A stretch of DNA of 64,000 nt from an uncultured Clostridia bacterium (GTDB lineage Bacteria > Bacillota > Clostridia > Christensenellales > Aristaeellaceae), in the NCBI GenBank assembly GCA_946536315.1, contig CAMNEH010000002.1, positions 1 through 64,000 on the forward strand, given 5' to 3'. The notes under the pieces were generated by a model that did no database searches, was not told the origin of the DNA, and saw only the letters and a program-made list of their open reading frames with translations. Of the stretch, positions 1 to 55,677 are shown in pieces; positions within the stretch are counted from its first letter, which is position 1, and the number at the start of each line of letters is the position of its first letter. Made by a program: the position numbers and the translations under genes.

Positions 1-1098
1 CCACTGCTTTTGCCGGAAAAACATCAGTTGAGAAGGTCACTGTCACAGGAGGTACAGTGGCAGAATCTGCGTTTGTAGGCTGCACAGGATTGATTACAGT
101 CAATCTTAACGAGGGCGTGACTGGTATAGGTCGTGACGCTTTTAAAAACTGTACGGAATTGACCAGCCTAAAGATTCCGGACAGTGTCACACAGCTTGAC
201 GGGGGCATGATTCAGGGCTGTACAAAGCTTGAGACTCTGGAAATTGGCTGTGGCATTCCGGAAATGACTTTAGAATATAATGCCAGTTTTACCGGCAGTG
301 GTGGCATGAATGGAAGAAATCCATTCTATATCGGCAGCGGCTCAACTTTGAAAAGAATCATCTTGCACGAAGGAATTACACAAATTGGTTCCAAAGTATT
401 TGGTAACTGTCCATATAAACAAAATACACCTATTGGTCATCCTGAATTGACGTACGTTAATCTTCCCAATTCTCTGCAGTCAATTGGTGAAGACGCGTTT
501 TACGGTGCGCCACTGACGGATGTGAAAGATATCACACTTTCTTACCCGACCACTGCTTTTGCCGGAAAAACATCAGTTGAGAAGGTCACTGTCACAGGAG
601 GTACTGTGGCTCAATCCGCATTTGTCGGCTGTACGGCATTGAAAACTGTTGATCTTAAGGAAGGCGTAACCAGCATAGGTCCTGAAGCGTTCAAAGACTG
701 CACGGAACTGGCCAGCCTCAAGATACCAAACAGTGTCACGCAACTTGGTGCAAATATGATTAAAGGGTGTACGAGCCTGGAAACTTTGAATATTGGTTGT
801 GGTATACCGGAATTGGCTTTAAAATCCAACAGCCATTTTACCTCAATTAATGCAAGCAACACAAACCCATTTTATATCGGCAGTGGCTCAAGTCTGCATT
901 ACATTATCCTGCAAGAGGGGATCACCAGGCTCGGACCGGAAATCATCGCCAACGGTCAATACTATCATTCTTCACATTCGGGGTATTCAGAATTGACGCA
1001 TGTCGATTTCCCTAAGTCCCTGAAGTCGATAGAAACAGACGCATTTTATGGAGCGCCCATCGCGACAGTTAAACTGCCCGATGGAATTACCAGTATCT
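1..1098 (+). repeat. Two ~549-bp tandem LRR units inside the BspA-like gene
   Basis: The first ~55 bases of the window (CCACTGCTTTTGCCGG...) recur almost exactly at 550, giving a unit of about 549 bp (183 codons). The two units encode parallel segments with 'TTAFAGKTSVEKV', 'SAFVGCT', 'IGCGIPE', 'NPFYIGSG' and 'DAFYGAP' in the same order. The boundary is nearly identical in DNA while unit interiors have diverged. More copies may lie upstream of the window. Confidence 0.7.
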
Positions 1099-30370: not shown

Positions 30371-30626
30371 CCTGAATGCTGTCCGATATGCGCGCCAGTT
30401 TTCCCCCGGCTGCTCCTGGTTTCCAGTGGCGATCTTATCCAGCACAGAATGGCTGCGTCGCGTTCCCAGCCGAATAGTTCAGACGGTGTCTGAATCATTG
30501 GATATACCGTTCTAAAACATGATCCTGTAAATGAAGGCAGTATGCAGCGTTTGAATATGCTGTCAGATCGCGAGTGAGCGGATGGATACTCTCAGACTAC
30601 GCTGGTAGACAACGCATGCAGCCATC

Positions 30627-32641
30627 ATTTGATTCCCCTATAAGATTACACTACTCTCAAACCAGTCATGAAATCAATGGAAACTCCATCGAGCTTGATT
30701 CCCCTATAAGATTACACTACTCTCAAACGATCTGTTCACGGAGCTGGTGAACAACCTGGCTTGATTCCCCTATAAGATTACACTACTCTCAAACGACTAT
30801 AGCTATCCAGAATTATTCGGTGATGCTTGATTCCCCTATAAGATTACACTACTCTCAAACTGATTTGGGGTCTTTGAGCGCCCAGGAGTGGCTTGATTCC
30901 CCTATAAGATTACACTACTCTCAAACAAAGAAGGCTGCATCCACCGCCTGTACGGCGCTTGATTCCCCTATAAGATTACACTACTCTCAAACAATATCTT
31001 ATGTCATACGCAAATCTTATGTGCTTGATTCCCCTATAAGATTACACTACTCTCAAACGGGGCCAGACGCCAGAAGCGCACGCCCGCGGCTTGATTCCCC
31101 TATAAGATTACACTACTCTCAAACGCTTGTCCGGCTCGCAGCCGAAGGACACGAGCTTGATTCCCCTATAAGATTACACTACTCTCAAACCTCATGAGCG
31201 CCGGTACAGAAGACATCGAAGCTTGATTCCCCTATAAGATTACACTACTCTCAAACAGAAAGACAAGATACGACCTCACTACACAAGCTTGATTCCCCTA
31301 TAAGATTACACTACTCTCAAACTCAATCAGCCCTGTGCACCGAGCTGATTAAGCTTGATTCCCCTATAAGATTACACTACTCTCAAACAGAAACTAATGC
31401 AATCTTGTATGCTGACAAGCTTGATTCCCCTATAAGATTACACTACTCTCAAACGACACCCGCATGGTCAGCGTCTGCGTGATCGCTTGATTCCCCTATA
31501 AGATTACACTACTCTCAAACAGTTCCCCGTCTTTTTCCTGCTGTCCTTCGGCTTGATTCCCCTATAAGATTACACTACTCTCAAACCTTTCGTCAGCGGT
31601 TTCGTGTGTTGCCAGAGCTTGATTCCCCTATAAGATTACACTACTCTCAAACGCGCGGCCTGGTTTTCTCATGCTGCTCGTCGCTTGATTCCCCTATAAG
31701 ATTACACTACTCTCAAACAGGCAGCCGGAAGCACTCGTCCCGACTCACGCTTGATTCCCCTATAAGATTACACTACTCTCAAACCAAAACCCAATGCAGC
31801 TGCTGATGCAGAAGGCTTGATTCCCCTATAAGATTACACTACTCTCAAACTAATAAAACTATTGGCAATGATCTGCTAAGCTTGATTCCCCTATAAGATT
31901 ACACTACTCTCAAACTACTGACGGGCAGACTGATGAAATTGACGAGCTTGATTCCCCTATAAGATTACACTACTCTCAAACGGCGTGGAAAGAAAGGCTG
32001 AAAAGATGGCTGCTTGATTCCCCTATAAGATTACACTACTCTCAAACGTTCACACCAATTTCGGTGAAGTTGATTCGGCTTGATTCCCCTATAAGATTAC
32101 ACTACTCTCAAACGGCATCCAAATCGCGCCAAACTTCGAGGATGCTTGATTCCCCTATAAGATTACACTACTCTCAAACAAGATTCTGGCGCGGAAGGAT
32201 GCCGAAGTTGCTTGATTCCCCTATAAGATTACACTACTCTCAAACCCGAGTCTCCCGGTTCCATTTTTGTGCCATGCTTGATTCCCCTATAAGATTACAC
32301 TACTCTCAAACGGACAGCTGGGACGAGGTGCTGCGGGATTTGCTTGATTCCCCTATAAGATTACACTACTCTCAAACACGCCATCCAAAGCAAACTCACG
32401 ACGGACAGCTTGATTCCCCTATAAGATTACACTACTCTCAAACTTGGTGCTGACACTAAAGCAAGAGACATAAGCTTGATTCCCCTATAAGATTACACTA
32501 CTCTCAAACGTGTTGTCCCGATTTACACCAGAACTACTCGCTTGATTCCCCTATAAGATTACACTACTCTCAAACCAGAAACTGGAACAGATGTGACTGA
32601 AGGAGGCTTGATTCCCCTATAAGATTACACTACTCTCAAAC
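30627..32641 (-). CRISPR. Type II-A CRISPR array, 31 repeats and 30 spacers
   Basis: The 36-bp repeat in crRNA orientation (minus strand) is GTTTGAGAGTAGTGTAATCT followed by TATAGGGGAATCAAGC. I counted 31 copies: 19 from 30627 to 31815 at exact 66-bp steps, then 12 from 31880 to 32606. Spacers are 30 bp, except one of 29 bp (31851-31879). All repeats look identical except the leftmost, where the final GC becomes AT; a degenerate repeat marks the leader-distal end. The array is therefore read leftward, with new spacers added at the right, next to the leader and csn2. Because the period is divisible by 3, it creates false ORFs reading 'LDSPIRLHYSQT'. Confidence 0.97.
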
Positions 32642-32768
32642 CTCAAAATCATGTTCTCCGCGCAGAATTTGTCCATTTGAGGCACGGCATATGGTCAAAA
32701 CCACATGAAACGGCACTACCACCGCAGTGTGCAATCTCAGAATCATTATAGCATTTTGTTGGCAAAAT
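32642..32768 (-). promoter_or_regulatory. CRISPR leader with array promoter
   Basis: This 127-bp stretch lies between the csn2 stop and the first repeat. Read on the minus strand it has TTGAAT, 16 bp, TATAAT near its start, and ends in TTTTGAG directly at the repeat. An ATTTGAG-like end is the known leader-anchoring sequence of type II-A systems, where Cas1-Cas2 integrates new spacers. Confidence 0.75.
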
Positions 32769-33437
32769 TCAATCAATTTCGCATAAATCACTGTCGATCA
32801 GGATGCGCGCTTCGCGCTGCAGACACGGTCGTTCGCAGGCTTCAATGCCGATCACATGATATCCATGGGACTGGATGGAGGCGGTCAGCGCTTCCATATC
32901 CTCATCACTGATATAGCTGCGGATATTGACCAGGAAGAACAGGCGTTCGGCATCATATTCAGTGATCAGTTCCATGTAATCGAGGAGCCGTTCCGGCAAC
33001 GATTCTCCGTCCGTCATCAGCTTCAGTCCTGTGGCCTTCAGCAGCGAAGCTATGGTAATATCGCTGTAATCAAGCTCACAGGGGATATCCAGCCCCAAAT
33101 CATCCAGATAGTTTTCCACCGCGGCCAGGATCGACGCGGTCGCTTCGTAATGCTCCGCTTCGTTGGCCTTTCTTTCCAGCGCAGCCAGGATTTTATTGAG
33201 CAGCGGTTTTCGGTTCAGCTCGAAAGGCACGAACGTATCCAATATGACAGCCCGTTTTGCAAAAGCCACCGGCCTGTCATTTTCTGAGAGCACTGAAACG
33301 CCGTCCTGCCCATTGATTTGTTTGCTGATATCTGTCAACAGTCGTACAAACAGGTCCTGGTTTTCAATCACCAGGGTATTATAACGCCCATTGTCCGTGT
33401 CGATCAGCGTTTCGATCTCAGGGTGCGCAAACTTCAC
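32769..33437 (-). CDS. csn2: Csn2, type II-A adaptation protein
   Basis: A 222-residue protein with the Csn2 layout: '[20 protein letters not shown]' near the N-terminus and a long helical middle. It ends in '[20 protein letters not shown]' and '[13 protein letters not shown]'. Csn2 forms a ring on DNA ends and is needed for spacer uptake in type II-A systems. Its start overlaps the cas2 stop by 4 bases (ATGA). It is the last gene before the leader. Confidence 0.9.
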
Positions 33438-33754
33438 AGCAGCACCAGCCTTTCATCCGTATTGAGCACCTCGCTGCTCGCTTCACCGACGATGTATTCC
33501 ATCTGTCCGAACTGCTTTTCCGTTACAGTCAATGCCTGAACCAGCCCCTTCGGAGGCTTATGCCGTCGGATCGTGTCGAGCACCGCCTTTTCCGCCGTCG
33601 GCGTAATCAGCAGGCGACAGTACACTGATTCCTGCATCATCAGGAAGCCGTTTTTGATCAACAGCTTCCTGAAATGCCGATAATTGGCCTTATCCTCCGA
33701 CGTATCAGTCGGCAGATCAAAGAATACGATCAGTCTCATAAAGCGGTAGCTCAT
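33434..33754 (-). CDS. cas2: Cas2
   Basis: A 106-residue ferredoxin-fold protein: '[20 protein letters not shown]' with the conserved Asp, '[19 protein letters not shown]' and '[16 protein letters not shown]'. With Cas1 it forms the spacer integrase. It overlaps cas1 and csn2 by 4 bases each. Confidence 0.94.
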
Positions 33755-34626
33755 GGCTTCAAGCGGTAGGACGGCACCGCTTCCCCATCGTCACGGTTCA
33801 ACGCGTTCAGGACGTTCCTTACATAGATTTTCACTGCGTTCAGCACCGTCTGCCTGCTTTTATCCACAATGACCTCCTGATGCAGTATTTCGAGTATGAC
33901 GTGTTTTTCCGCACTCGTGAACTGTTCCGGGGCCATACGGACCACAGCGCGGTCCACCAGGACCCGGAAGGGCTCCATCAAATCACAGCCGAGGTTGAAA
34001 TGATTGAACTGATTGTTGTGAAATACACCCAATTGCGTCAGGCAGCCGCAGGCAGATATTTCCCGGTTCACGATGGACAGCAGGATACTATATCCGTAGT
34101 TCAGCGCGGCATTGATCGGGCTGGCCGCGCCGCGCGTGAACTTCATGCCGAACAGCGCGTTGAAGTAGACCTTCGCGGCGTGACCCTCCCGGTTCGTGGC
34201 GTCCCCGGGTTCGACCTGCGCCTGATACTGCCAGAGCATTTCGCTTTCCGCACGATAGCCGCATTCCGCCAGGAAGTCCGCCTGTTTGCCGATCTTGTCG
34301 CGCATGATCCCCTGCCACATTTTTTGCTTTGTCTCTTCGCGCCACGCGATCTGCTGCCGCATGCGCTCAGCGCTGTCATGGCAGCCGTGATGCGGGACCA
34401 GTTCGGAAATCGGTTCACGCCTGGCGTCGCAAAAAATCACTTTGACCTTCTTATTGGTCAGCGCTTCGATCAGGCTGCCGGTCAGGGAGACCGCCGGGCT
34501 TTCGATCAGCAGAACCGCGACTTCGTCCAGGAATACGCGCCGGATTTCGCGCCCACGCACCGACATATAGCCGAGGCGGTAATCCAGCTTGCAGCGCCCT
34601 GTGATGACGACCGTACGCCAGCTCAT
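33751..34626 (-). CDS. cas1: Cas1 integrase
   Basis: A 291-residue type II Cas1. The metal-binding residues are present in '[16 protein letters not shown]' (Glu), '[20 protein letters not shown]' (His) and the Glu of the same segment. It inserts spacers at the leader end of the array. It overlaps the cas9 stop by 4 bases, so the four cas genes form one tightly coupled operon. Confidence 0.95.
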
Positions 34627-37600
34627 AACAGATCAAGGAGATTGCCGCTTCGCTGTTCCCATAAACCGCTGACGGAGCGGTCGATGATTCGGACAACGGA
34701 GTATGCCTTTGTCCAGTTGGAAATACATGTACTAAGTGTTGTTACAGCCGCTTTTTTTACCCCGCCAATCATTGACAAATCACAGCCGCCACCACCGTTC
34801 CTGGTGAAGAGCAGATGTATGTTAAGCAGCGTTTCCGCCTGATCTGTCAGAGATAGATCTTCAAAAAGCTTTCTGCCATTCTTCAAGACATCTACGGGCA
34901 TATTCATACGTTTGCGGAAGATGGTTTTTTCAGCTTTCTCAATATACAAGTCATATAAACGAAGGTTTTCTTCACGATTGACGCCATCATACTGTGAATC
35001 CGGTATATAGCGGATATTGTTCTGATGCTTTTCAGTCATTGATTCGAGGCGTTTGATGTATCGTTCAGTCGAGGAGGTGTGTACAAATTGCATGAGCGGC
35101 GCCATGACGATTCGTGATCCTCCATTCGAAGTACCTGAAATACACGCTTCGAAGCCATCGAAGGACAGGATCGTATTGACTTTCAAGATTCTGCCATCCA
35201 GAAGCCACTCCACACGCTCCACTGTTTTGCCCAGGATACTGCTGATACGTCCGGTCAGATACTCGATCGCGTATGTATTGTCTTTAAGGAAGCGCTCCGA
35301 TGCCATCAGCTCCACCGGCACCACCATCACATCCCGTTTTTTCCCGGCCTGATACTGCGCAAACACATAGAAACTGACCGAAGGTTTATTGTATCCGCCA
35401 TACTTTGCGATATCAAGGTCTGTTTTCCGCTGTACCTGGCCAAGTCCCGCCTTCAGCGGCATCTGATCGAACAGGCCGCCTTTTTTGCAGAAGGGATACT
35501 TGCTGAAATGGATATTATTCTTTGCCATATACGCGACCGCCTTGTCCTTCATGGTCGCGCCATCCCAGACGGTTTCGCCGTTACAGACGAGCGGGCGCGT
35601 GAAAAGCACCTTCGTGTTCAGTGAATACTCATCATCAATGTGGAACCACTGGCGCGTGAAGCGCATGTTGTACACATTCCCGACGACGATGTTCAGATAG
35701 GCATCCTTGGCATGGTGCAGCTCGTTGTAGCTGCGGCACTTGACGCAATCGAATTCCTGCCTGAATTCGGAGGCCAGCCGCGCTTTGACATATACAACCT
35801 CCGTATCCGGATACGTTTCCCGAATGATCGTAGCGACCGCCTTGGTGGACTGTGACGTTTCCGTCAGCTGTCGGTTGATGAAGCCCCACTTCTCGTCATC
35901 CGTGAAAGCCGTGGCCCGGGTCAGGCGCTTATACTTTTCTTCGCTGATCAGGCCAAGCGCCTTCAGCTTGGTCCAGTAGGGCCGCATTTCCGTCCGGATC
36001 GAAGCGGCGATGGGATAGCTGTCGCTCTTTGCGCCATTCACTTCCGACAGCACCAGCACCTTGTTGTTGATCACGCTGTCGTCCTTGACCTTGGACCGGG
36101 GATAAATATGCTCAATGTCGTACAGCTTGCCGTTCATCAGTTGGTCCAGGTCGATCGTCTTTCCCGTATACATGCACTTCCCCAGCTGCATATAGTAGAG
36201 GAACAGGCGATCCGACTGCAGGCGGTTGTCCACCTGTTCACCCATATCTGCCAGCTGCTGCCGCAGCAAACGCACGTCCTCTTCCTCGCATTGTTCATAC
36301 AGCGCCATGATCTGTTCGCGGCGCGCCTGGGTGCGCTTGCCCTTTTGCTCCGGCTTTCCTCCGCGCGCCATTTCCACAAAAATCTTGTCCGGCGCTTTGC
36401 CAAAAGCTTTCGTGACCTCCTTGACGATCTCCAGTGTCCGGATGATCGGGCGCTTGACGGCATTGGAAATATACATCGCGTCCAGCCGGTCTGTGAGGTT
36501 CATCGGATGGTCGGCATAATAATCCTTCTGTTCCGCCTGGATCTTTTCCATGAATGTATAGCGGTCCGACAGGATCTGCATCATATTGTCATTGGTATCC
36601 CAGAGCGCGCGCATTACCGTAAAGATCTCGCCGCTCTGGCGGTCAGCCCCCTCCAGTTCCGTCAAGAACCGCGCTGAGATGCGGCCAAAATCATGGTAAT
36701 TGAGATGCGAAATATATCGCAGGTCCTGCTCGGGTAAAAAGGCGTAGTGACCTTTCAGCCATCTGACAAAGCGTCCGCTGTCTTCAGCGTATGTCCGCCG
36801 TTCAATGATGTCCTCCACCTGCGCTTCCGTCAGCGCGCCGGTTTCCATCAGACGCGCGAAGTCATGCCAGGGCTTCAGGTCCGACTTGATATTCGTTTCC
36901 GTATCTACTCCGCTCACCTTGTCCGATTTATCCATATAGTGATTGGCGACCAGATAATCGCATAAACGCTTGAACGTCACCTTCCGGTACTTCATAAACA
37001 GGTCCGTATAAATGGTTTGCTTGAGCGCGACGGAAATAGGCTCGCCGTTGATTTTCAGATTGTTGATTTCATTGAGCACCGTAAATTTGTGATAGAGCAG
37101 GGAATCCTTCGGGAGCACCTTCTCGCCGGGCAGGTAGGTGCAGGTATTCGTGAGCTTGGCAATAAAAGCCTGCTCGCTGGCGTCCAGATCGACCTTTTTG
37201 TCAAAGTTCCAGGGATCAATCCTGCCCTCTGCCTTGCGTACCACCCAGGCATATTGGGACTGCGGGTTCAACGGGCCTACAAAATACGGCACCCTGAAGG
37301 TCATGATGCTGCGGATCTTATCTGAAACGCTCAGCCCATCCTGGTCTTTGAGCGAGAGGAAGGGCAGGTAGGTCTGCGCGTTTTTCAGGATTACGTCCAA
37401 TTCATGCCAATAGAGCTGATAGGGGATGACGCGGTTATCCGAATTGACCTGTTTGGGCATGAACGAACGGTCCTCCAGACGGCGCTTCATATCACTCAGC
37501 ATTGGCTCGTCTTCCGGCTCAGGCTGGATGGTGCTGACTAATTTGCTGATGAATTTACAGAAGTCCTCCTGGCTGGCCTTTCCTTCGATCGCAGCCGTAT

Positions 37601-38708
37601 CGCCATGATAGGCATAAGCGGTATACGCATGGGGATCATTGCTCCTGAAGACCGCAGGATACGCTTTGGGCAGGTATTTTCGTACGATATACTTCAGGTG
37701 CTTCAGGTCTTCCTTGTGTTGCCGATATACAGCGACTTTCGCTTTAGAGATGCAGTTGCTTTCCCCCGGCGCGGTCGCGCTGGCGCCGAGGATATCCTCC
37801 AACAGCGCCCAGTCATAGAGCGCTTTCATGCAAACGATCAGTTCGGCGTCCTCGCCCAGGGCGCTCATGACCTCTGCGAGTTCCTCCTCCTTGGAGCCCA
37901 GCGTGAAAGACTTGATTTCGCTGTAATCCGCGTTATTAAAGAGCTGTTCGGCCTTCATGGTCCCGCCGCACAGGCCCTTCAGCATCATCTCAGCGTCATA
38001 GGGAAAATCTTCAGTGTATTTTGATGGCTTGCCGCTGCCGAAACATATGGTTTTCAGTTGCCTGTAACGTTGGTTGATCCCCGCATGCAAATGCAGGACC
38101 TTGCTGAATTCCGCTATATCACAGCCTGTCCACGGCACCTGCTCGCCATTTGCCGCAAAATACGAAAGGAACTTTTCATAGACTGTCTGGAAATCGGTCA
38201 CCTTTTCCACATTTTCCCGATCAATCTCGTTCAGAAAATGTCCGCGATGGATCAGCAACCATTCACAGGCCAGATAGACCAGCCGAACGTCATGGGGATC
38301 AGTTGATGCCATCAGCTCCACGATCAGGTGATGGATCGTCGGATATTGACGGTTGTATTCGCGATCAGTAAAGCCCGGATCATTGAAAAAGAGATAGCGT
38401 TGTTCGCGTTCCTCCGGCTGCAGTCCGCTCATCTGCAGGCGCGCAAAAAAATGGGGATCCACTTTGGAGATCGCCGGCGAAAAAAGCTCCCGCAGCAATT
38501 GTACCCGATGCTGCCGGCGGTCCAACCGGCGGCGGGCAGTACGGAACCCACGGCGTTCCGCATTCAGCTTTGCCTCATCGAATACCGTGACACCCCAGGC
38601 AGGTTCGCCATGAAATTTCAGCACATTGTACGCTTCATCCGTGACGGCGTAACCGACCGAATCAGTGCCAATGTCCAGCCCAAGATAGATTTTTTCCTTT
38701 TCTGACAT
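34623..38708 (-). CDS. cas9: Cas9 nuclease, type II-A, 1361 residues
   Basis: RNA-guided DNA nuclease that uses crRNA and tracrRNA. RuvC-I is 'YLGLDIGTDSVGYAV' (Asp12), followed by an Arg-rich bridge helix 'ERRGFRTARRRLDRRQHRVQ'. The REC lobe runs to about residue 740, RuvC-II is 'IFVEMARGG' (Glu779), HNH is 'YDIEHIYPRS' (His867), and RuvC-III is 'LHHAKDAYLNIVVG' (His999, Asp1002). All catalytic residues are in place; the HNH has Glu866 where SpCas9 has Asp839. The last ~260 residues form the PAM-interacting part. Length is near that of SpCas9. RBS GGGGAGG precedes ATG 38708. The PAM cannot be read from the sequence. Confidence 0.97.
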   Translation of the reverse strand: MSEKEKIYLGLDIGTDSVGYAVTDEAYNVLKFHGEPAWGVTVFDEAKLNAERRGFRTARRRLDRRQHRVQLLRELFSPAISKVDPHFFARLQMSGLQPEEREQRYLFFNDPGFTDREYNRQYPTIHHLIVELMASTDPHDVRLVYLACEWLLIHRGHFLNEIDRENVEKVTDFQTVYEKFLSYFAANGEQVPWTGCDIAEFSKVLHLHAGINQRYRQLKTICFGSGKPSKYTEDFPYDAEMMLKGLCGGTMKAEQLFNNADYSEIKSFTLGSKEEELAEVMSALGEDAELIVCMKALYDWALLEDILGASATAPGESNCISKAKVAVYRQHKEDLKHLKYIVRKYLPKAYPAVFRSNDPHAYTAYAYHGDTAAIEGKASQEDFCKFISKLVSTIQPEPEDEPMLSDMKRRLEDRSFMPKQVNSDNRVIPYQLYWHELDVILKNAQTYLPFLSLKDQDGLSVSDKIRSIMTFRVPYFVGPLNPQSQYAWVVRKAEGRIDPWNFDKKVDLDASEQAFIAKLTNTCTYLPGEKVLPKDSLLYHKFTVLNEINNLKINGEPISVALKQTIYTDLFMKYRKVTFKRLCDYLVANHYMDKSDKVSGVDTETNIKSDLKPWHDFARLMETGALTEAQVEDIIERRTYAEDSGRFVRWLKGHYAFLPEQDLRYISHLNYHDFGRISARFLTELEGADRQSGEIFTVMRALWDTNDNMMQILSDRYTFMEKIQAEQKDYYADHPMNLTDRLDAMYISNAVKRPIIRTLEIVKEVTKAFGKAPDKIFVEMARGGKPEQKGKRTQARREQIMALYEQCEEEDVRLLRQQLADMGEQVDNRLQSDRLFLYYMQLGKCMYTGKTIDLDQLMNGKLYDIEHIYPRSKVKDDSVINNKVLVLSEVNGAKSDSYPIAASIRTEMRPYWTKLKALGLISEEKYKRLTRATAFTDDEKWGFINRQLTETSQSTKAVATIIRETYPDTEVVYVKARLASEFRQEFDCVKCRSYNELHHAKDAYLNIVVGNVYNMRFTRQWFHIDDEYSLNTKVLFTRPLVCNGETVWDGATMKDKAVAYMAKNNIHFSKYPFCKKGGLFDQMPLKAGLGQVQRKTDLDIAKYGGYNKPSVSFYVFAQYQAGKKRDVMVVPVELMASERFLKDNTYAIEYLTGRISSILGKTVERVEWLLDGRILKVNTILSFDGFEACISGTSNGGSRIVMAPLMQFVHTSSTERYIKRLESMTEKHQNNIRYIPDSQYDGVNREENLRLYDLYIEKAEKTIFRKRMNMPVDVLKNGRKLFEDLSLTDQAETLLNIHLLFTRNGGGGCDLSMIGGVKKAAVTTLSTCISNWTKAYSVVRIIDRSVSGLWEQRSGNLLDLL

Positions 38709-38969: not shown

Positions 38970-41168
38970 TTATTCTCGCGTCTTGGCCCCCTTGCTCTTG
39001 AGGAACTGCTTTTCCTGGTACATGAGGTGGTCGGCGCGCTCGAAGACGGCGTGCACGCGCGGGTCGGCGGCGGGGTCGAACACGGCCAGGCCGCCGGAGA
39101 CGACGACGTCGCCGGTGGGGATATGGCTCAGGGACCGGTCGTGCAGCTCGGCCATCAGCGCGTCGCGCGCGGCGTAGTCGCGGCCGGTGAGGAACACCAC
39201 AAACTCGTCGCCGCCGGTGCGGTAGACGGGGCTGTGCTGGAAGAGCTCGCAGATCATGGCGCTGGCGGCGCGGATGTAGTCGTCGCCCGCCTTGTGGCCC
39301 AGGGTATCGTTGACGTGCTTGAGGCCGTTGACGTCGCACACGACCACGGCGAAGGGCTCGGCGCGGCCGGCGTCGATGAGGGCGTCGGTCTCCGTTTCCT
39401 TCTCGATGTAGGAATGCTTGCTCTTGACCCCGGTCAGGGCGTCGGTGTGCACGATGGAGCGGACGTGGCCGAGCTCCTGCTCGCTCTCCTCCGCGCGGCG
39501 GCTCATCAGGGCGTAGTTGTTCAGCAGTACGCCCAGCGAGGTGCCGAACAGCAGCAGCACCGTCAGGATGCTGGTGGCGTTGGTCTGGCGGATGTGGTCC
39601 AGCTGCTCGGACACGATGCCCGTTTCCACCGTCACGCCCTCGCTGGCGTAATAGGCCTGCACGCTGCGCATGGCCGCGTCCGTGGCCTGGATGGTGGACT
39701 GGCTCATCCACACCAGCGAGACGAACAGGATCAGCGAGAGCAGCACGATCCACACGACGATGGACTTGCCGAAGCGCCGGAAGCGGTCGCGCTTCAGGAT
39801 GCCCCTGAAATAGATGAACCCGAGCACCGACCAGATGACGAACAGGAAGTAGGACTCGCGCTCCATGGTCCCGGCGGAGAACAGGTTGGGGATGAGCAGG
39901 TACAGCCCATAGCCCACCATGATCAGCGCGCCCGCGGCGCCGGTCGCCATGACCGCGCGGCGGCGGTCCAGCCGCGCCTGCTTGAGCGCGGCGGCGGACA
40001 CGATGCCGTAGATCAGCGTCGCGCCGAAGCTGGTCACATCCACGATCCAGCCGATCGCGGTGCGGCCCAAGAAGGGGATGACCGCGGACACGCCGACGAT
40101 CAGCATCATCGCCTTCGCGGGCGTGCCGAAGCGCGAGACATCCGCGAAGCGCTCCGGCAGGATGCGGTCCTGCGCGAGCGCGTAGAACAGGCGGCTGAGC
40201 ACGGTCAGGTTGCCGATCAGGCTGGTTAGCACCAGCGCCAGCAGCGTGACCATCAGCACCGCGACACCAAAGCCGCCCATGTACGTCTGCGCGGCGTAGA
40301 AGGCGGGCAGCGCCTCGATGCCCTCTAAGTTGCCCAGGTCGCGGATGTAGGCGAGCCAGCTTTCGTACCGCGGCGGATACGCGGTGACCGACAGCAGCGT
40401 AACGCAGATGTACAGCGCCGTGACCACGAGCACCGACAGCGTGAGGATGCGGAACGCCCTGCTGCGCTTGAAGTTGAACTCCTCCGCGCCGTGGGAGATG
40501 CACTCAAACCCGATGAACGCCCAGGGCGAGATGACCGCGATATTGACCACCTGGCTGAGCGCGCTGCCGCCGGGCACAAACGCCGGCTGCCAGCCCCCGC
40601 CCGAGCGCAGCGCGCCGACGATGAAGCACCCGATGATGCCCACGCAAAGCAGCAGCGCCATGCCGATCATCGCGCGCAGGGCCGCGCCGCGGTAACGGAT
40701 GCACAGCGCCGCCGTCAGCAGGATGGCCGCCAGCGTGAGCAGCGCTTCGCCCAGGTATACGTCGTAGCCGAACAGCGCGTACATGCGCCCGAACCGGAAC
40801 ACATTGCCCAGGAAATACCGCGCGAACAGCGGCAGCGCCGTCGCGTTCGCCCAGAAGACGGCCAGGTAGGTCAGCGCCGCGAACCACGCGCTGATAAACC
40901 CGAAATCGTACCCGAACAAATCCCGCGCATAGGCGTAAGCGCCGCCCGCTTCCGGACAGCGCTCGATCATGTACGCGTAATTGCGGCTCATCAGCAGCAT
41001 CACCAGCGCGCCGGTCACCATGCCCAGCACGCTGCCCAGCGGGCCCGCCTGCGCCAGGTAGGTGTTGCTGGTCACCACCAGCGACCCCCAGCCGATGCTC
41101 ACGCCGATTGAAAACGCCCACGCCCCCAGGGGCGACAGGTTGGCCGTCAAATGCTTTTCTCGTGCCAT
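38970..41168 (-). CDS. APC-type amino-acid permease fused to a GGDEF diguanylate cyclase
   Basis: Residues ~1-440 are a polytopic APC-superfamily transporter: 'LGAWAFSIGVSIGWGSLVVT', 'CPEAGGAYAYARDLFGYDFG', 'VVNIAVISPWAFIGFECISH' and 'LTSLIGNLTVLSRLFYALAQ'. Further membrane segments and an outside loop (~490-540) lead to a C-terminal GGDEF domain: 'HTDALTGVKSKHSYIEKE', 'FAVVVCDVNGLKHVNDTLGH', and an intact GGDEF at about 652-656 ('YRTGGDEFVVF'). No RxxD inhibitory site is seen before the GGDEF. So it should make c-di-GMP, perhaps in response to amino-acid binding or transport. Start ATG 41168 has GGAGGTG 6 bases upstream; the track ATG 41186 does not. It is the last of three c-di-GMP-linked genes on this strand. 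Confidence 0.9.
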   Translation of the reverse strand: MAREKHLTANLSPLGAWAFSIGVSIGWGSLVVTSNTYLAQAGPLGSVLGMVTGALVMLLMSRNYAYMIERCPEAGGAYAYARDLFGYDFGFISAWFAALTYLAVFWANATALPLFARYFLGNVFRFGRMYALFGYDVYLGEALLTLAAILLTAALCIRYRGAALRAMIGMALLLCVGIIGCFIVGALRSGGGWQPAFVPGGSALSQVVNIAVISPWAFIGFECISHGAEEFNFKRSRAFRILTLSVLVVTALYICVTLLSVTAYPPRYESWLAYIRDLGNLEGIEALPAFYAAQTYMGGFGVAVLMVTLLALVLTSLIGNLTVLSRLFYALAQDRILPERFADVSRFGTPAKAMMLIVGVSAVIPFLGRTAIGWIVDVTSFGATLIYGIVSAAALKQARLDRRRAVMATGAAGALIMVGYGLYLLIPNLFSAGTMERESYFLFVIWSVLGFIYFRGILKRDRFRRFGKSIVVWIVLLSLILFVSLVWMSQSTIQATDAAMRSVQAYYASEGVTVETGIVSEQLDHIRQTNATSILTVLLLFGTSLGVLLNNYALMSRRAEESEQELGHVRSIVHTDALTGVKSKHSYIEKETETDALIDAGRAEPFAVVVCDVNGLKHVNDTLGHKAGDDYIRAASAMICELFQHSPVYRTGGDEFVVFLTGRDYAARDALMAELHDRSLSHIPTGDVVVSGGLAVFDPAADPRVHAVFERADHLMYQEKQFLKSKGAKTRE

Positions 41169-41228
41169 GATACACCTCCAACGCATCGCAGGGGGGGACG
41201 TCCCCCTACGGTTCGGCCTGCGGCCTCA

Positions 41229-41274: not shown

Positions 41275-41462
41275 CTGGTACAGGTCCCGCTTTACCACTG
41301 AAGCTGTGAAGCCTGTTGAAACGATCCGACGGTCACTGCATGACTGTCAGTACACCGCGCAGCCGCTGCTGGTACAGGTCACGGCTTCACGACTGAAGCG
41401 TGAAGCCTGTTGATACGATCCGACGGTCACTGCACGACTGTCAATACACCGCGCACCCGCAC
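41275..41462 (-). repeat. 94-bp tandem duplication covering the 3' end of the EAL gene
   Basis: CTGGTACAGGTC...GTGAAGCCTGTTGA...ACGATCCGACGGTCACTGCA...ACACCGCGCA occurs at 41275-41368 and again from 41369, with few differences. The right copy contains the last codons and stop of the EAL gene ('CAVY*'); the left copy repeats those codons without a gene. The right copy also forms GGCTTCAC/GTGAAGCC, a possible terminator stem. Confidence 0.75.
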
Positions 41463-43651
41463 CGCCGGACCTCTTTCATGCGGTAGAGCGCGGTGTCCGC
41501 GTCGTGCAGGATATCGCCCTGGGGATTTTCACGGTCGGCGAAGGCCACGCCGACGCTCAGCGACACGGGCGGCAGGCCGTCCTCCGGCTGGGCGAGCAGC
41601 GCGTTGACCTGCTCCACCTTGTCAAACACCAGCTTGCGCATGGAGCTGTTCACGCGCGACATGATGATGGCGAACTCCTCCGGGCTCAGGCGGCACACGA
41701 AATCCACCGAGCGGAAGCTGCCGCGCAGCACCGACGCCACGCGCCGCAGCAGGGGCTCCGTAATGTCCGTGCCGTGCGCCGTCGCGACCGTCCTGAAATC
41801 GTTCACCGCGGCGACCAGCACCGCGATATGCTCCTGGTCCGCGTCATGCAGCAGCATATCAAACGCGCTGGCGTTGTACAGCCCGGTCACGGGGTCGTGC
41901 AGCGCGTCGTAGGTCAGCTTGCTCGGCGCCTGCGCGCGCTGGGGCGAGGCCGGCGACTCCGCGGTCTCCGCCTGCCGCCGGGCGAGCAGAAAGCGCTCGA
42001 ACTCCTCCGCCGGCACCGGGCGCGAGAAATAGTAGCCCTGCACCAGGTCGCAGCCCATCGTTTTCAGGGTGAACAGCTGCTCCGCCGTCTCCACGCCCTC
42101 GGCAATGGTCGGCACGTCCAGCGACGCGGCCAGGTCGAGCACGACCTCCAGCATGCGCGTGTTCTTGCGCTCGCGGAAGGCGTTGCGCACGAACTGCATG
42201 TCCAGCTTCAGCGCGTCCACCGGCAGCGTGGAGATCATGTTCAGCGAGGAATAGCCCGAGCCGAAGTCGTCCATCTCAATAAAGTATCCCAGCTCGCGCA
42301 GGCGGTCGACCATGGCGATCATCTGGTCCGAGTCCTGCGTGTAGGCGGACTCGGTGATCTCCAGCAGCAGGTCGCCGCGGTTCAGGGAAAACTCCTTCAC
42401 CAGGCCCTCGAAGATGTCGATCACCCCCGGGTCGAGCATGTCCACGCGGGACACGTTCACCGACACCGGCACCGACACGCCCAGCCGGTCCTTCCAGTCC
42501 CGTATCTGGCGCGCGGCCTCGCGCCAGACGTAGCGGTCCAGCTGCTGGACGAGGCCGTTGCTTTCAAACAGCGGCACGAACACGCCCGGGCTGACCATGC
42601 CCAGCTGCGGGTGCTTCCAGCGCACCAGCGCCTCCGCGCTGTTCAGCACCGGCTCCGCCGGGCGGATGTCGTACTTCGGCTGGTACCAGACCATGAACTG
42701 CTTCTGCTCGATCGCCTGACTGAAGCCGTCCAGCAGCTGCTCGGAGAACATTTCCGACTCGTGCAGGGCGTTATCGTAGATCGCGATGGCGCGGGTATAG
42801 CTGGTGCGCACGGTATCCGCCGCGAGCTTCGCGCGGTCAAACCGGCGCTCGATATCGATGCCCTTGTCCACGTCCGCGTATACGCCCATGCGCAGGCGCA
42901 GCCGCGCCTCGTCGTCGGCCGACGCGCTGTCCAGGATGGCCGCGTAGTCCGTGCCGTGCGGGACGTAGATCAGAAAGGTGTCCGCCTCCAGCCGGCAGAC
43001 GATGCCGCCCGCGACCTGCGCCTGCGCCTGCAGCCGCGCCGCCACGCGCTGCAGGATCCGGTCGGCGTACGCCTTGCCGTAGCGCTCGTTGATCATGTGA
43101 AAATGGTTGATGTCCACCACGATCGCGTCCATCGCCTGCGTCCGGTGGTGCAGGTCGAACTGCTCGGCGTAGCGGTAGAAGTATTCCCGGTTGTACAGAT
43201 TGGTCAGCGTGTCGCGCTCCGTCCAGCGGATGATGTCACGGTCCTCCGACAACTCGATGGTGCGCAGCACGCGCGCCAGCACCACCTTGGGGCTGGGGTA
43301 CGGCTTGGGGATGAAGTCGATCGCGCCGATGGTCAGGCTCTCGACCTCCGCCTCCTTGTCCGAGGTGACCACGATGACCGGGATGCGCGACAGCCGCGCG
43401 TCCGATTTCAGCTCCCGCAGGATGTCCAGCCCGTGCCGGTCCGGCAGCAGCAGGTCCAGCAGGACCAGGCTGAGCGTGTCCGCGTGCCCGCGCACCTGCT
43501 CGATCGCCTCCGCGCCGTTTTCCGCGTACAGCAGGGTATACTGCTCCTCCAGGATGCCGCCGAGCAGCGCCCGGTTGATCGCCTCATCATCCACCACCAG
43601 AATGGTGCGCTGCGTATGATTGGCCTGAAATGATTGCTGATTGTCCTGCAC
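41441..43651 (-). CDS. Response regulator with EAL phosphodiesterase and two degenerate GGDEF domains
   Basis: About 736 residues. REC covers ~15-130 ('TILVVDDEAINR', phospho-acceptor Asp66 in 'LVLLDLLLPDRHG', Lys in 'FIPKPY'). GGDEF 1 (~150-290) has a ruined active site ('CRLEADTFLIYV'). EAL (~310-560) looks active: 'AEALVRWKHPQLG', 'LEITESAY', 'MDDFGSGYSSL' and 'TIAEGVETAEQL'. GGDEF 2 (~590-730) is again degenerate ('CRLSPEEFAIIM'). The protein should break down c-di-GMP under control of phosphorylation. The GTG at 43651 is well spaced from TTTGGAGG, whereas the track start TTG 43666 lies inside the RBS. No sensor kinase is adjacent. Confidence 0.88.
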   Translation of the reverse strand: MQDNQQSFQANHTQRTILVVDDEAINRALLGGILEEQYTLLYAENGAEAIEQVRGHADTLSLVLLDLLLPDRHGLDILRELKSDARLSRIPVIVVTSDKEAEVESLTIGAIDFIPKPYPSPKVVLARVLRTIELSEDRDIIRWTERDTLTNLYNREYFYRYAEQFDLHHRTQAMDAIVVDINHFHMINERYGKAYADRILQRVAARLQAQAQVAGGIVCRLEADTFLIYVPHGTDYAAILDSASADDEARLRLRMGVYADVDKGIDIERRFDRAKLAADTVRTSYTRAIAIYDNALHESEMFSEQLLDGFSQAIEQKQFMVWYQPKYDIRPAEPVLNSAEALVRWKHPQLGMVSPGVFVPLFESNGLVQQLDRYVWREAARQIRDWKDRLGVSVPVSVNVSRVDMLDPGVIDIFEGLVKEFSLNRGDLLLEITESAYTQDSDQMIAMVDRLRELGYFIEMDDFGSGYSSLNMISTLPVDALKLDMQFVRNAFRERKNTRMLEVVLDLAASLDVPTIAEGVETAEQLFTLKTMGCDLVQGYYFSRPVPAEEFERFLLARRQAETAESPASPQRAQAPSKLTYDALHDPVTGLYNASAFDMLLHDADQEHIAVLVAAVNDFRTVATAHGTDITEPLLRRVASVLRGSFRSVDFVCRLSPEEFAIIMSRVNSSMRKLVFDKVEQVNALLAQPEDGLPPVSLSVGVAFADRENPQGDILHDADTALYRMKEVRRCGCAVY

Positions 43652-43676
43652 TTTTCTTTCCTCCAAAGGGTCACGA

Positions 43677-44630
43677 TTATTGGATCAGTTCACTGCTCGG
43701 CACCCACAGGCGCATGGGCTGCCGGATCTTTTTGTCGGTATATTCAATCATGGTGTAGTCGCCCTCCGCCTCATAGGCGGTGACGCTCTCGCCCGCCGCC
43801 AGCGTGACCGGGGAGGCGATATACCCCTCCCCCGGCCCGTACAGCGCCTTCGTGGCCCGGGCGACCCTGGCCTTCCTGGGCGACGCGCCGACCTCCGGCT
43901 CCGTCCGGTCCTCGTCGCGCTTCACGCGGATGGACGGCACCCAGGCCCGCAGCTTCCCGTTGGAGGCGGTGATCTCAATCATGCAGTAGCCGTTTTCGCG
44001 CCCGCAGACGCCCACCGCCAGCCCCGCGCCGACCGGCATCAGCGCCTGTTCGCGGTAGCTGTCCCCCGGCCCGAAGTACGTGGTGACCCTCCGGGTGATA
44101 TGGGCGGGCACGGGGCTCGGCGCCAGGACGACCTCAACGACCGGGGCCTGCGTGGGCAGCGCCTTCCCGCTGAGCGTGTTCAGGTAGCGGTCGCCGCTGT
44201 CGCGCACGTCCAGCAGCCCCGCATACAGGTCCAGCGCGCTCTGCGTCAGCCCCTTCAGCTCATACCGCCGGGCGTTGCAGTATATTTTCAGGCGCTCGCT
44301 GTCCCTGAAGCCCGCGTTGGCCAGGATCTCAAAATACCTGAGGGCCTGATCGACGCAGGCCTCGGCGTCGGAGAGATAGCCGTAGGCTTCAAAGTCGTCC
44401 GCCTGGCTGAGCGCGATCATGGCCTCGCAATAGAAGCGCCAGCTGCCCGCGTCGGCATAGCCCGGGATGCGCTCGAACTGCTCCAGCGCGTTCTGGTACA
44501 TGCCCAGCGCGGCATAATCCTGCCCGGTCTGATAAACGCTCTGCTTATCAACGGCCGGGCTGGCGCCCGCGCAGGCCATTCCGCCCGCCAGCGCCAGCAG
44601 CAGTACCGCGATGAAAAGCCATTTTCTCAT
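43677..44630 (-). CDS. Exported protein with TPR-like region and two SH3b-like domains
   Basis: 317 residues starting with a signal peptide, 'MRKWLFIAVLLLALAGGMAC'. The Cys might be lipidated, but the lipobox is poor. Residues ~30-150 are helical TPR-like repeats ('DYAALGMYQNALEQFERIPG'). Two bacterial SH3-like segments follow ('RRVTTYFGPGDSYREQALMP' and 'TKALYGPGEGYIASPVTLAA'), with 'AWVPSIRV' and 'LWVPSSEL' at their ends. It probably binds the cell wall. First gene of the c-di-GMP cluster, about 25 bases before the EAL gene. Confidence 0.75.
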   Translation of the reverse strand: MRKWLFIAVLLLALAGGMACAGASPAVDKQSVYQTGQDYAALGMYQNALEQFERIPGYADAGSWRFYCEAMIALSQADDFEAYGYLSDAEACVDQALRYFEILANAGFRDSERLKIYCNARRYELKGLTQSALDLYAGLLDVRDSGDRYLNTLSGKALPTQAPVVEVVLAPSPVPAHITRRVTTYFGPGDSYREQALMPVGAGLAVGVCGRENGYCMIEITASNGKLRAWVPSIRVKRDEDRTEPEVGASPRKARVARATKALYGPGEGYIASPVTLAAGESVTAYEAEGDYTMIEYTDKKIRQPMRLWVPSSELIQ

Positions 44631-46259: not shown

Positions 46260-48035
46260 TCAGGGCAGCTTTTCCACCGTCAGCGCCAGCGGGCCGCCTT
46301 CAGGATCAGCCGTATACTCCAGGGACGTATCGATGGAATAGCCTTCCGGCGCGTAGATCACCTGCAGATGATAGGGATACGGCGCGCCGACGAACGTGGC
46401 GACGCCCTGGTCATCGGCGGCGACGGGCGTGCAGGTGCTGTCCGTGCAGAAATTGACGAGGCAGCCCGGCACCGGATCGCCAAACTGATCGGTGAACACC
46501 ACGGTATAGGTGACCTCCGCCGCGGCGGACGCGTCCTGCGCCGTTCCCGCGTCCTGCGCGTCCCCGCCTCGCGCCGTGCCGTCCGCGTAGCGGTACACGC
46601 AGGAGATGCCCGAGGCGTTCAGCATCGTCTCGAACGCGTCGGCGGCCTGCTCCGTCGGGAAGAGGAACGCCGCTGCCTCATACGCCATGGTCGCGCTGTT
46701 GAACAGCACGAGGTTGCCGTAGGAATAGCCGTCCGCCGCGGCCGTGTCGGTGAGCTCGCCGTTCAGCAGGTCATAGGCGGTCCAGACGCCGCTGTTGCCC
46801 AGCAGCAGCGCGTCGTCACAGTTCAGGGTACCGGAAATGCCCGCGGCAAACCGCACGGTATCGCTGTTGACCACCCAGAACCCAACGCGCCCTGTGCCCA
46901 TATACGCGGCCATGTCGATCGCCTGGCCGTCTTCATCCGTGAAGACGATTTCCCGCGCGCCCTCATTGCGCACGTCGATGCCGGTTTCCGCCGCATAAGG
47001 ATAGCTGACCAGCGGATTACCGCTGAGCGCCGCCGTGGCCTCATCGCCGCTCAGCAGCGCGAAGTCCCTGAGCCACACCGCGTCGCCCTCGCGCTCGCCC
47101 GTATAGCCCTTGCTGTACCTGAGGCTGACGCGGTTTTCGCCTTCCCGCAGCGCCACGGCGTATTCCGCCCAGTCAAAGCGGCCGGTGAGCGCCCGCTGCT
47201 GTTCGCCATTCAGGCGGATCACGAAGCGGTCCGCGCCCGGCTCGCTCATGAGCCTGAAGGAGAAGCGCAGCGCGTCGCCCGCCTTCGCGTCGGCGCAGAC
47301 GATCATTTCGGCATCGCTGTCGCTGACGCCCGCGTTGCCGGAACGGACGCAGGCCACGCCGTCAAGCGTCTCCACGGTGAACGGCCAGGCGTACTCGTCC
47401 TCCGGCGCGGCGACCGTGAACGGCGCGCCGAGAACCGCCGCCAGCGCGTCCTCCGCGCCTTCGGCCGTCCGGGGCGGTCTGCGCTTTGGAAATTCGTCGA
47501 ACACGCGCGTTTCGGTATAGTCGTCGGCGGTCAGCAGCTCAAACGCGTTGAGGAAGGGATCGGCCGAGGGCTGCGAGCCCACGCTGATCAGCACCACGTT
47601 GCCAAAACGGTCCACCAGCACGCTGGTCGGGATGCCGGTGGTCACGAACCGCGCGTACATGCCGGCGTCCCCGTCGCGCGCGACCTTGAAGGTCATGCCG
47701 TGCGACGCCGCATAGGCGCTCAGCTTTTCGTTGGTGTCATTCGGCTCGCCGGATATGGCGATGATTTCCACCTGGTCCTGGTAGCGCTCGTACGCCTGCT
47801 GCATGAACGGGAATTCCCGCTCGCAGGGGCCGCACCACGTCGCCCAGAAATTTACCAGCACCGCCTGGCGGCGCGTCAGCGTTTCGGACAGGGAGAAGGT
47901 CTCCCCCGTGATCGTCGTCACGGTAAAGTCCGGCATCGGCTGGCCCAGGTACCTTTCCGGCCCGCTCTCCCCCGCCGCCGCGCAGGCGGCGCCCAGCACA
48001 GCAATCAGCAGCAGCGTGACGATCATCTTCTTCAT
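46260..48035 (-). CDS. Exported TlpA-like thioredoxin with long C-terminal extension
   Basis: About 591 residues. The signal peptide 'MKKMIVTLLLIAVLGAACAA' may be lipidated at Cys. A TlpA/ResA-type redoxin domain (~25-165) follows, with the active site 'NFWATWCGPCERE' and 'TTGIPTSVLVD'. The next ~400 residues contain beta-rich segments and an Ig- or Cna-B-like end ('TYTVVFTDQFGDPVPGCLVN', 'GVATFVGAPYPYHLQVIYAP'). It probably reduces or exchanges disulfides outside the membrane. Start ATG 48035 was chosen because GGAGG lies 11 bases before it; the track start has no RBS. Divergent from the rhodanese gene. Confidence 0.82.
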   Translation of the reverse strand: MKKMIVTLLLIAVLGAACAAAGESGPERYLGQPMPDFTVTTITGETFSLSETLTRRQAVLVNFWATWCGPCEREFPFMQQAYERYQDQVEIIAISGEPNDTNEKLSAYAASHGMTFKVARDGDAGMYARFVTTGIPTSVLVDRFGNVVLISVGSQPSADPFLNAFELLTADDYTETRVFDEFPKRRPPRTAEGAEDALAAVLGAPFTVAAPEDEYAWPFTVETLDGVACVRSGNAGVSDSDAEMIVCADAKAGDALRFSFRLMSEPGADRFVIRLNGEQQRALTGRFDWAEYAVALREGENRVSLRYSKGYTGEREGDAVWLRDFALLSGDEATAALSGNPLVSYPYAAETGIDVRNEGAREIVFTDEDGQAIDMAAYMGTGRVGFWVVNSDTVRFAAGISGTLNCDDALLLGNSGVWTAYDLLNGELTDTAAADGYSYGNLVLFNSATMAYEAAAFLFPTEQAADAFETMLNASGISCVYRYADGTARGGDAQDAGTAQDASAAAEVTYTVVFTDQFGDPVPGCLVNFCTDSTCTPVAADDQGVATFVGAPYPYHLQVIYAPEGYSIDTSLEYTADPEGGPLALTVEKLP

Positions 48036-48076
48036 CGATTCACTATCCTCCAGGTGCATTGATCTGGTTTCCACTT

Positions 48077-53739: not shown

Positions 53740-55677
53740 TCAGTTCTCTTTCGTCATGCCTTCGTCGGACAGCGGACCGTCGTAGGCCAGGCACAGCATG
53801 GTCAGGTCGTCAAATTGCGGCGCATCGCCCACGAACGCGGATACCGCCCCGTCCAGCGACCGTACGATTTCCTCCGGCGCATCCGCCGCCGCGCTGTTCA
53901 GGGCATTCAGCATCCTGTCCGTACCAAACATTTCCTCATGGGCATTGGTCGCCTCCGCGACGCCGTCCGTATAGACCAGGAAGCGCGCGCCGGGTTCCAG
54001 CGCCACCGTATACTCCCGGTACCGCACCCCGGACATGCCGCCCAGCACAAAGCCGTGCTTATCATTGAGCAGCTCGAACGCCCCATGGGGGTGTCTGATG
54101 ACAGGATACTCGTGTCCCGCGTTGGCGGCAGTCAGGATGCCCGTCGAGATTTCCAGCACCCCCAGCCACACGGTGACGAACATTTCCTCCGGGTTTCGGG
54201 CGCAAATATCCTCGTTGACCATCTTCAGGATCGCCGCGGGGCTCTTTTCCTGCTTGGCCACATGGCGGATCAGAGAGCTGGACAGCATCATGAACAGCGC
54301 CGCCGGGACGCCCTTGCCGGATACGTCGCCGATCACCAGGCACAGATGATCGTCATCCATCAGGAAAAAATCATACAGGTCGCCGCCGACCTCCTTCGCG
54401 GGCGTCATGGCGGCGAAGATGTCAAACTCCTTCCTGTCCGGGAAGGGGGGAAATTCTTTGGGAAGCATACTGGTCTGAATGCGGACCGCCAGCGCGAGCT
54501 CCGTGCCGATGCGCGCGTTCTCCAGCGCCAGCGCGCGGCGTTCCCGCGCCGCAATCGCATAGTGGTCTGCCACCGCGAAAGCCATCAGCAGCAGCGCGGC
54601 GGTCGGCAGCCACAGGATATGCGTGATATAGCCCAGCTGATACAGGCCATAGCTGCCGGCCACGCCGAGGACGATCATCCCCGCGCAGACGCCCGCGCTG
54701 ACGATCATTCTGAGCCGCAGGAACAGGAAGGCCGCGACAGCGCTGAGCGCGAACAGCACGGCCAGCTGGACGGCGTTGTTCACTTCCGTTTTATAATGGC
54801 CCTCCAGCAGGCACTGGATGACGTTCGCCTGGTATTCCACCCCATACATCGGCACGCCTTTATTGATGGAGGTGAAATAAGCGTCCTGCAGCGACGCGGC
54901 GTAGGGGCCGATCAGGACGATCTTGTTCGCCCAGAACCCGGCGGGGAGTTCCCCGCTGATCAGGCCCGCGATCGACGCGCCTTCGTAATAATCCCCCGGC
55001 TGCGCCGTCATGGGCACATAAAAGTGACCGGTAGCGTTCACCGGCGGCGGAACGATGGTTTTTCCCTGCCGCTCCATGAAGGCCCGCGCGGTTTCATACG
55101 CCATGGAATACACGCGCCGTCCGTTTTCGGGCTGCACATACAAAAGCGCGTGCCGCAGGATGCCGTCCGTATCGAGCATGGCGTTGATATGGCCCTGCGT
55201 CGTATACGCGGCCAGCTCAAAATAGGGCTGCACATAATTGACGACGGCGGAAGCGTTCAGGGACACGGCGCGGCCATCCGCATACTTCACCTGATCGCCG
55301 TATTCCGCCATGGACGCGGTGACGACGTTGCCCAGCGCCGCGGCCGCCCCCGCCAGGCGAAGGTCCGCCTCGTCCGTCGTTTCCCCGGCGTACAGGATGT
55401 CCACAGCGACCACCGCCGGGAGATTGTCCGGGTCAGCCGCCAGCGCCTCCAGCGCCGACGCGACGACCGTCCTGTCCCAGGTGTTGTAGGGGCCGAACTG
55501 CTCCAGCGCGTTCTCATCGATCCCGATGATGACAATATCCGTCGACGTCACGCCCGGGTGCTGGAAGTAGGCGTCCTGCATCCAGCGGTCCGCCGGTTTG
55601 AGCGCCCCGGATGCGGCCAGCGCTGTCACCAGCAGCGCGGCAACCAGGGGAATCAGGAATTGTCCCGATTTCTTCAT
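53740..55677 (-). CDS. CHASE2 sensor with SpoIIE-type PP2C phosphatase domain
   Basis: 645 residues. An N-terminal membrane anchor is followed by an extracellular CHASE2 domain (~30-305; 'MQDAYFQHPGVTSTDIVIIG', 'VAVDILYAGETTDEADLRLA', 'KIVLIGPYAASLQDAYFT'). Three membrane helices (~310-385) lead to a SpoIIE phosphatase (~410-630; 'PAKEVGGDLYDFFLMDDDHL', 'VIGDVSGKGVPAALFMML', 'TDGVAEATN', 'DDLTMLCLAY'). It likely senses an external signal and dephosphorylates an anti-sigma-antagonist, but no such partner genes are nearby. It lies 29 bases behind the giant MBG gene, so the genes may be co-transcribed. Confidence 0.9.
   Translation of the reverse strand: MKKSGQFLIPLVAALLVTALAASGALKPADRWMQDAYFQHPGVTSTDIVIIGIDENALEQFGPYNTWDRTVVASALEALAADPDNLPAVVAVDILYAGETTDEADLRLAGAAAALGNVVTASMAEYGDQVKYADGRAVSLNASAVVNYVQPYFELAAYTTQGHINAMLDTDGILRHALLYVQPENGRRVYSMAYETARAFMERQGKTIVPPPVNATGHFYVPMTAQPGDYYEGASIAGLISGELPAGFWANKIVLIGPYAASLQDAYFTSINKGVPMYGVEYQANVIQCLLEGHYKTEVNNAVQLAVLFALSAVAAFLFLRLRMIVSAGVCAGMIVLGVAGSYGLYQLGYITHILWLPTAALLLMAFAVADHYAIAARERRALALENARIGTELALAVRIQTSMLPKEFPPFPDRKEFDIFAAMTPAKEVGGDLYDFFLMDDDHLCLVIGDVSGKGVPAALFMMLSSSLIRHVAKQEKSPAAILKMVNEDICARNPEEMFVTVWLGVLEISTGILTAANAGHEYPVIRHPHGAFELLNDKHGFVLGGMSGVRYREYTVALEPGARFLVYTDGVAEATNAHEEMFGTDRMLNALNSAAADAPEEIVRSLDGAVSAFVGDAPQFDDLTMLCLAYDGPLSDEGMTKEN

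Follow-up and report, generated by a model that had tools for sequence, protein, structure and literature searches.

An APC-family permease fused to a predicted diguanylate cyclase belongs to a clade of receptor-like modules with exchangeable signalling outputs

In this study we looked at a gene from a gut or rumen Clostridia bacterium (genome 83% complete) that joins a whole APC-type amino-acid transporter to a GGDEF domain in one protein. It lies in the window, by which we mean the whole 64,000-nucleotide stretch of DNA that was analysed. The protein belongs to a clade in which one transporter-derived receptor serves at least four kinds of signalling output. The best explanation, to which we assign a probability of about 0.6, is that a permease-derived amino-acid receptor sets c-di-GMP synthesis and is opposed by a partner phosphodiesterase. 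The features are listed below, with the evidence for each in brackets.

38970–41168, minus strand: APC-GGDEF protein, 732 aa plus stop (single open frame, GGAGG ribosome-binding site, Pfam, full-length relatives)
39789–41168, minus strand: APC-fold receptor core, residues 1–460, 12 TM helices (Pfam, AlphaFold2, Foldseek)
39501–39758, minus strand: TM13, outside helical hairpin (~50 aa) and TM14, residues 471–556 (helices from AlphaFold2, TMs by inspection)
39450–39500, minus strand: signalling helix from TM14 to GGDEF, residues 557–573 (continuous AlphaFold2 helix 516–574)
39006–39449, minus strand: GGDEF domain, residues 574–721, with the GGDEF motif at 39201–39215 (Pfam, genome scan, motif check in relatives)
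41441–43666, minus strand: partner gene, with REC, degenerate GGDEF, EAL and degenerate GGDEF (RLSPEEF) domains (Pfam, adjacency or fusion in relatives, EAL scan)
41275–41460, no strand assigned: tandem duplication spaced by 94 nt, covering the partner gene end and the gap before the APC-GGDEF gene

The start codon of the APC-GGDEF gene is placed at the ATG at 41168, preceded by a GGAGG ribosome-binding site at 41175–41179; the in-frame ATG at 41186 has no such site. Within this one frame, Pfam finds AA_permease_2 (E=9.6e-28, 97.7 bits against a cut-off of 27), AA_permease (3.5e-23) and GGDEF (E=4e-19). The transporter matches are to AA_permease families only, and no SLC5 (SSS) domain was found by Pfam. 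The sequence-only reading of this DNA had named a sequencing frameshift joining two genes as what would refute the fusion. A frameshift or assembly join was rejected as its source, because at least 10 other genomes or records carry the same fusion in an uninterrupted frame.

A model of the protein was built with AlphaFold2 from a 33-sequence alignment (mean pLDDT 88.4, pTM 0.74). It shows a complete APC fold, in which TM1 is broken at G26-W27-G28 (helix break 25–26) and TM6 at 218–220, followed by two added long helices (471–510 and 516–574) and a folded GGDEF domain. Together with Foldseek, the model identifies the fold as the inverted-repeat LeuT type, with both TM1 and TM6 unwound. The closest match of the membrane part is AdiC, with a target-normalised TM-score of 0.85, and LAT1, y+LAT and GkApcT were matched as well; against GkApcT, AdiC and LAT1 the target-normalised TM-scores are 0.74–0.85 at 16–23% identity. 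The earlier claim of a full APC-type transporter and a GGDEF domain in one ORF is thus borne out by Pfam and by the model. By inspection, TM13 exits the membrane into an outside hairpin of ~50 residues, after which TM14 runs as one helix into the GGDEF domain. This TM13/hairpin/TM14 region is kept in the GGDEF-bearing relatives and in several of the kinase-bearing ones. There is no STAC four-helix domain in the protein; the TM14 helix enters the GGDEF domain directly, with ~17 residues between them.

The GGDEF domain contains all four catalytic motifs (DVNGLKHVND, GHKAGDD, RTGGDEF and MYQEK), in agreement with the earlier statement that all signature residues are present. FQHS stands in place of RxxD, 9 to 6 residues ahead of the GGDEF motif; the I-site is therefore absent, as had also been noted. 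Both traits extend to the relatives, where RxGGDEF and DxNxLKxxND are intact in 17 of 17 related GGDEF chains and an RxxD I-site occurs in none of the 17. The cyclase therefore looks constrained, and the missing I-site is a trait of the lineage. Based on these motifs, the domain looks like an intact diguanylate cyclase that is apparently under constraint.

The APC-GGDEF fusion is kept in 17 related chains that are 46–63% identical to the window protein, and full-length relatives with intact frames come both from other genera of this bacterial family and from MAG records of rumen or gut origin. Several architectures were found for the same APC module. It is followed by GGDEF alone in L024, L025, L029, L038, L039, L077 and L084-L087, and by GGDEF-REC-GGDEF-EAL in one chain of ~1,310–1,520 residues in L021, L022, L023, L026, L028 and L078, an arrangement that recurs with broken frames in L077 and L079. 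A degenerate GGDEF-EAL follows it in L027, where the contig end cuts the gene, a hybrid histidine kinase (HisKA-HATPase-REC) in L030, L031, L080-L082, L089, L091 and L092, and HD-GYP in L088 and L090. Plain kinases, whose nature was read from sequence, are found in tandem in another class (L111 and L112). An APC-REC architecture in L083 is provisional, because its APC region is divided between two frames. The catalytic motifs are intact in all eight kinase H-boxes that were checked and in both HD-GYP domains. One APC module on GGDEF, GGDEF-REC-GGDEF-EAL, GGDEF-EAL, HisKA-HATPase-REC and HD-GYP outputs is the pattern expected of a sensory input.

Two of these loci have features of their own. 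The APC-GGDEF-EAL relative L027 (2913–5630) is on a contig labelled Sutterella (UBA9746), with all other carriers in Bacillota, which may reflect either mis-binning or transfer. The tandem APC-histidine kinase gene pairs of L111 (1507–6418) and L112 (396–5400), from the same phylum, have degenerate-looking kinase domains and are possibly heterodimeric receptors.

The fused modules group in a single clade. A tree of 39 modules splits 31 fused ones from 8 free-standing permeases with support of 100/99, and in a tree of 57 modules, in which a few free-standing rows are duplicates, 35 fused modules are separated from 22 free-standing ones by a branch with an SH-aLRT of 100. When the eight output labels are placed on the tree, 9 changes are needed compared with 31 in shuffles, and HD-GYP outputs arose at least two times. 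A census of ~1,180 genomes at a match threshold of 1e-60, free-standing matches counted, gave genomes with a match in the order (11/396), the class (12/391) and the phylum (10/399). All matches above 440 bits are fused, except one frame broken by a frameshift, and matches of 397 bits or less are free-standing. A transporter fold fused to a signalling output is thus conserved across genomes as 35 modules of a single clade that, as far as we could find, was previously undescribed. One could also argue for the reverse direction of control, in which the GGDEF domain, with GTP or c-di-GMP bound, would regulate amino-acid transport; KimA, an APC-fold transporter under c-di-AMP control, is among the Foldseek matches (8b70). 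Yet kinases and HD-GYP phosphodiesterases are attached to the APC module of this clade as well, and the GGDEF domain has kept its catalytic residues and lost the c-di-GMP-binding I-site in every relative, so that we regard this direction as very improbable.

A question that is raised by such a fusion is whether the APC domain binds its ligand or also transports it. In the fused clade the pocket is strongly conserved, with an entropy of 0.55 compared with 1.65 for all helix positions (permutation p ~1e-4), and in the free-standing permeases conservation is likewise high (0.72 compared with 1.60). W216, Y253, N108 and Y101 are invariant in the fused clade, and Y274 is found in 35/35 fused modules. 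Other positions separate the two groups. All 35 fused modules have E222, which occurs in none of the 22 free-standing ones (Asp in 19); H226 is present in 33/35 and 0/22, with Gln in 21 of the free-standing ones. W106 occurs in 32/35 fused modules, with Pro at the same position in 17/22 free-standing ones, and N320 in 26/35, with Phe in 21/22; position 320, in TM8, was matched by eye to AdiC Trp293. The alignment with GkApcT has no gaps in the stretch where Phe231 corresponds to W216, Asp237 to E222 and Thr241 to H226. GkApcT binds alanine via backbone atoms of TM1 (Ile40, Thr43 and Gly44) and TM6 (Phe231, Ala232 and Ile234), its Asp237 is essential, with mutation abolishing transport, and mutation of Lys191 stopped transport with binding kept (PMC5803215). 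GkApcT, AdiC and LAT1 (SLC7/APC) share the fold and the conserved elements that bind the amino-acid backbone, but they have no output domain, carry Asp at the position of E222 and have Thr or Ser at that of W27. The GWG motif of TM1 and the loss of the TM5 lysine were each considered as a receptor marker and rejected; both are shared with the free-standing relatives and therefore are not receptor-specific.

We read this pattern as a binding site that is kept and an inner gate that is altered. The clade-wide changes from Asp to Glu and from Gln to His at the cytoplasmic gate suggest binding more than transport, and loss of transport in the fused clade is likely, judging from these residues. Asp to Glu at position 222 is a conservative change, with which transport might still be possible. 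In this respect one option is a true transceptor, with uptake or exchange of an amino acid retained in the APC domain and GGDEF activity governed by the transport cycle. A mechanism of this kind has been proposed for CbrA, which transports histidine and carries a kinase (PMC7096432). The full 12-TM core, with the gating aromatic W216 (AdiC Trp202, GkApcT Phe231) and the TM7 Tyr253 conserved, would fit such a cycle. However, E222 and H226 replace the Asp and Gln of the free-standing relatives across the clade, and equivalents of the TM3 Glu and TM5 Lys are absent from the fused modules, though from the free-standing relatives as well; we consider this option unlikely, yet worth keeping in mind. 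The sequence-only reading had proposed that amino-acid binding or flux sets c-di-GMP output. The APC domain as sensory input to an intact cyclase domain is supported, and flux is the doubtful part.

The next gene upstream encodes the partner, which by inspection has the usual REC and EAL residues. Homologues of this phosphodiesterase are adjacent to APC-GGDEF or APC-kinase genes in 10 loci (L030, L031, L038, L039, L080-L083, L087 and L089), only a few tens of bases from the APC-GGDEF gene in L038 and L039, and are fused in 8 (L021, L022, L023, L026, L028, L077, L078 and L079); in L086 a homologue is close by. The 317-aa gene at 43677–44630 was considered as a third member and rejected, with no homologue beside the related loci and no Pfam match. 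In the 272-nt gap or nearby, including the tandem duplication, the riboswitch search gave no Rfam match. Within the 83% complete genome, the EAL domain of the partner is the only one found, and GGDEF domains occur in three proteins only: the window protein, the partner with its two degenerate copies, and a membrane cyclase, encoded on contig 151, whose GGDEF domain has an RxxD site. No PilZ domain or effector was found in the same genome, and a search of it for GEMM riboswitches gave no match, with the control search likewise silent. As no more than two candidates for an intact GGDEF domain and a single EAL domain were found in the host genome, the two-gene unit may account for most of its c-di-GMP turnover. 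The canonical REC domain of the partner also allows a simpler scheme, in which the APC domain, for which no ligand is known, serves only for membrane anchoring or as a scaffold for assembly, the cyclase is constitutively active, and all the control comes from the REC domain of the phosphodiesterase. An anchor would not need the strongly conserved pocket and gate residues, and we hold this scheme to be improbable.

Other features were observed in the window. Just downstream of the APC-GGDEF gene is a Type II CRISPR-Cas locus (30625–38708), with an array at 30625–32644 (66-nt period, with one 131-nt step), Cas1 at 33751–34626 (TIGR03639) and Cas9 at 34623–38708 (1361 aa). Another membrane signalling protein, a CHASE2-SpoIIE phosphatase, is encoded at 53740–55677. 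A 1711-aa surface protein at 57–5192 has BspA-type leucine-rich repeats, Big_2 and Listeria-Bacteroides repeats, and a 604-aa protein at 46260–48074 has an N-terminal ResA-like redoxin domain followed by ~430 residues without a Pfam match.

Based on these data we can suggest how the receptor would work. An amino acid, or a close analogue, would occupy the pocket that the APC domain has between its broken helices TM1 and TM6, and binding rather than transport would be the signal. The resulting change in the bundle would travel via TM13, TM14 and the outside hairpin into the continuous helix, which would set the geometry of a presumed dimer of cytoplasmic GGDEF domains and so switch c-di-GMP synthesis, the sign of the response being part of the proposal. 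Since there is no I-site, product feedback on the proposed cyclase would be weak. The REC-EAL partner would remove c-di-GMP from what is presumably the same pool, and the pair would act as a switch between synthesis and breakdown. In the kinase-bearing relatives, we infer, the adjacent REC-EAL protein would be an obvious phospho-acceptor; this could be the reason that the two remained linked as the output switched between kinase and cyclase. In CbrA, the closest studied analogue, histidine had no effect on kinase activity (PMC7096432), and ligand control of the APC-GGDEF output is therefore not to be assumed.

The sequence-only reading knew of no well-studied APC-GGDEF protein, and the literature agrees with it: in searches of freely accessible full texts, no APC-family permease fused to GGDEF, EAL, HD-GYP or a kinase was found, although the architecture may well stand, unremarked, in domain-architecture databases. 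LysP belongs to the APC family. In the LysP-CadC trigger-transporter system this amino-acid permease controls a signalling protein (PMC7096432), but the two are separate proteins, the output is an acid-stress response and transport is retained. In the SLC5-STAC histidine kinases CbrA, CrbS and MxtR, too, one chain carries a complete LeuT-fold transporter domain and, C-terminal to it, a signalling output; CbrA and CrbS are transporter-derived receptors (PMC13022988, PMC7096432, PMC5715377). Theirs is an SLC5 domain with STAC, whereas here an APC domain (AA_permease_2) is followed by TM13-hairpin-TM14 and a helix, and the outputs of the APC clade include EAL and HD-GYP, together with a partner phosphodiesterase. 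In some proteins the output joined to SLC5-STAC is a GGDEF domain (PMC7096432, PMC5715377), and the idea of a transporter as input to a diguanylate cyclase is therefore less rare than had been claimed. The ammonium sensor kinase Ks-Amt5 (PMC5764959) is a transporter turned receptor with a fused output, but with an Amt fold and a kinase; there binding is kept and the loss of transport was measured, whereas in the APC clade it is only suspected. The 5TMR/S-component receptors (PMC11109136), transporter-derived as well, have a transporter-related membrane fold and exchangeable kinase, GGDEF and EAL outputs, yet the fold is small and unrelated, without the APC pocket. Transporter-kinase fusions (CbrA, Ks-Amt5) and SLC5-STAC-GGDEF proteins are thus known, and no report of an APC-family version was found. 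What is added here beyond the earlier reading is the receptor clade with exchangeable outputs and the partner phosphodiesterase.

A wider and more tentative idea, which we find possible though we lean against it, is that one ancestral Bacillota permease lost transport and became a general receptor module that was later placed on kinases, diguanylate cyclases, EAL and HD-GYP domains, and that in the family of the window protein, with the linked REC-EAL partner, it is the main amino-acid-controlled c-di-GMP switch of the cell. If the receptor reading is true, there would be a direct route from a gut or rumen amino acid to c-di-GMP through a permease fold. The clade would also be a clean system for the question of binding versus flux in transporter-derived receptors, a question that the Asp-to-Glu and Gln-to-His signature of 35 receptors compared with 22 permeases makes testable by point mutation.
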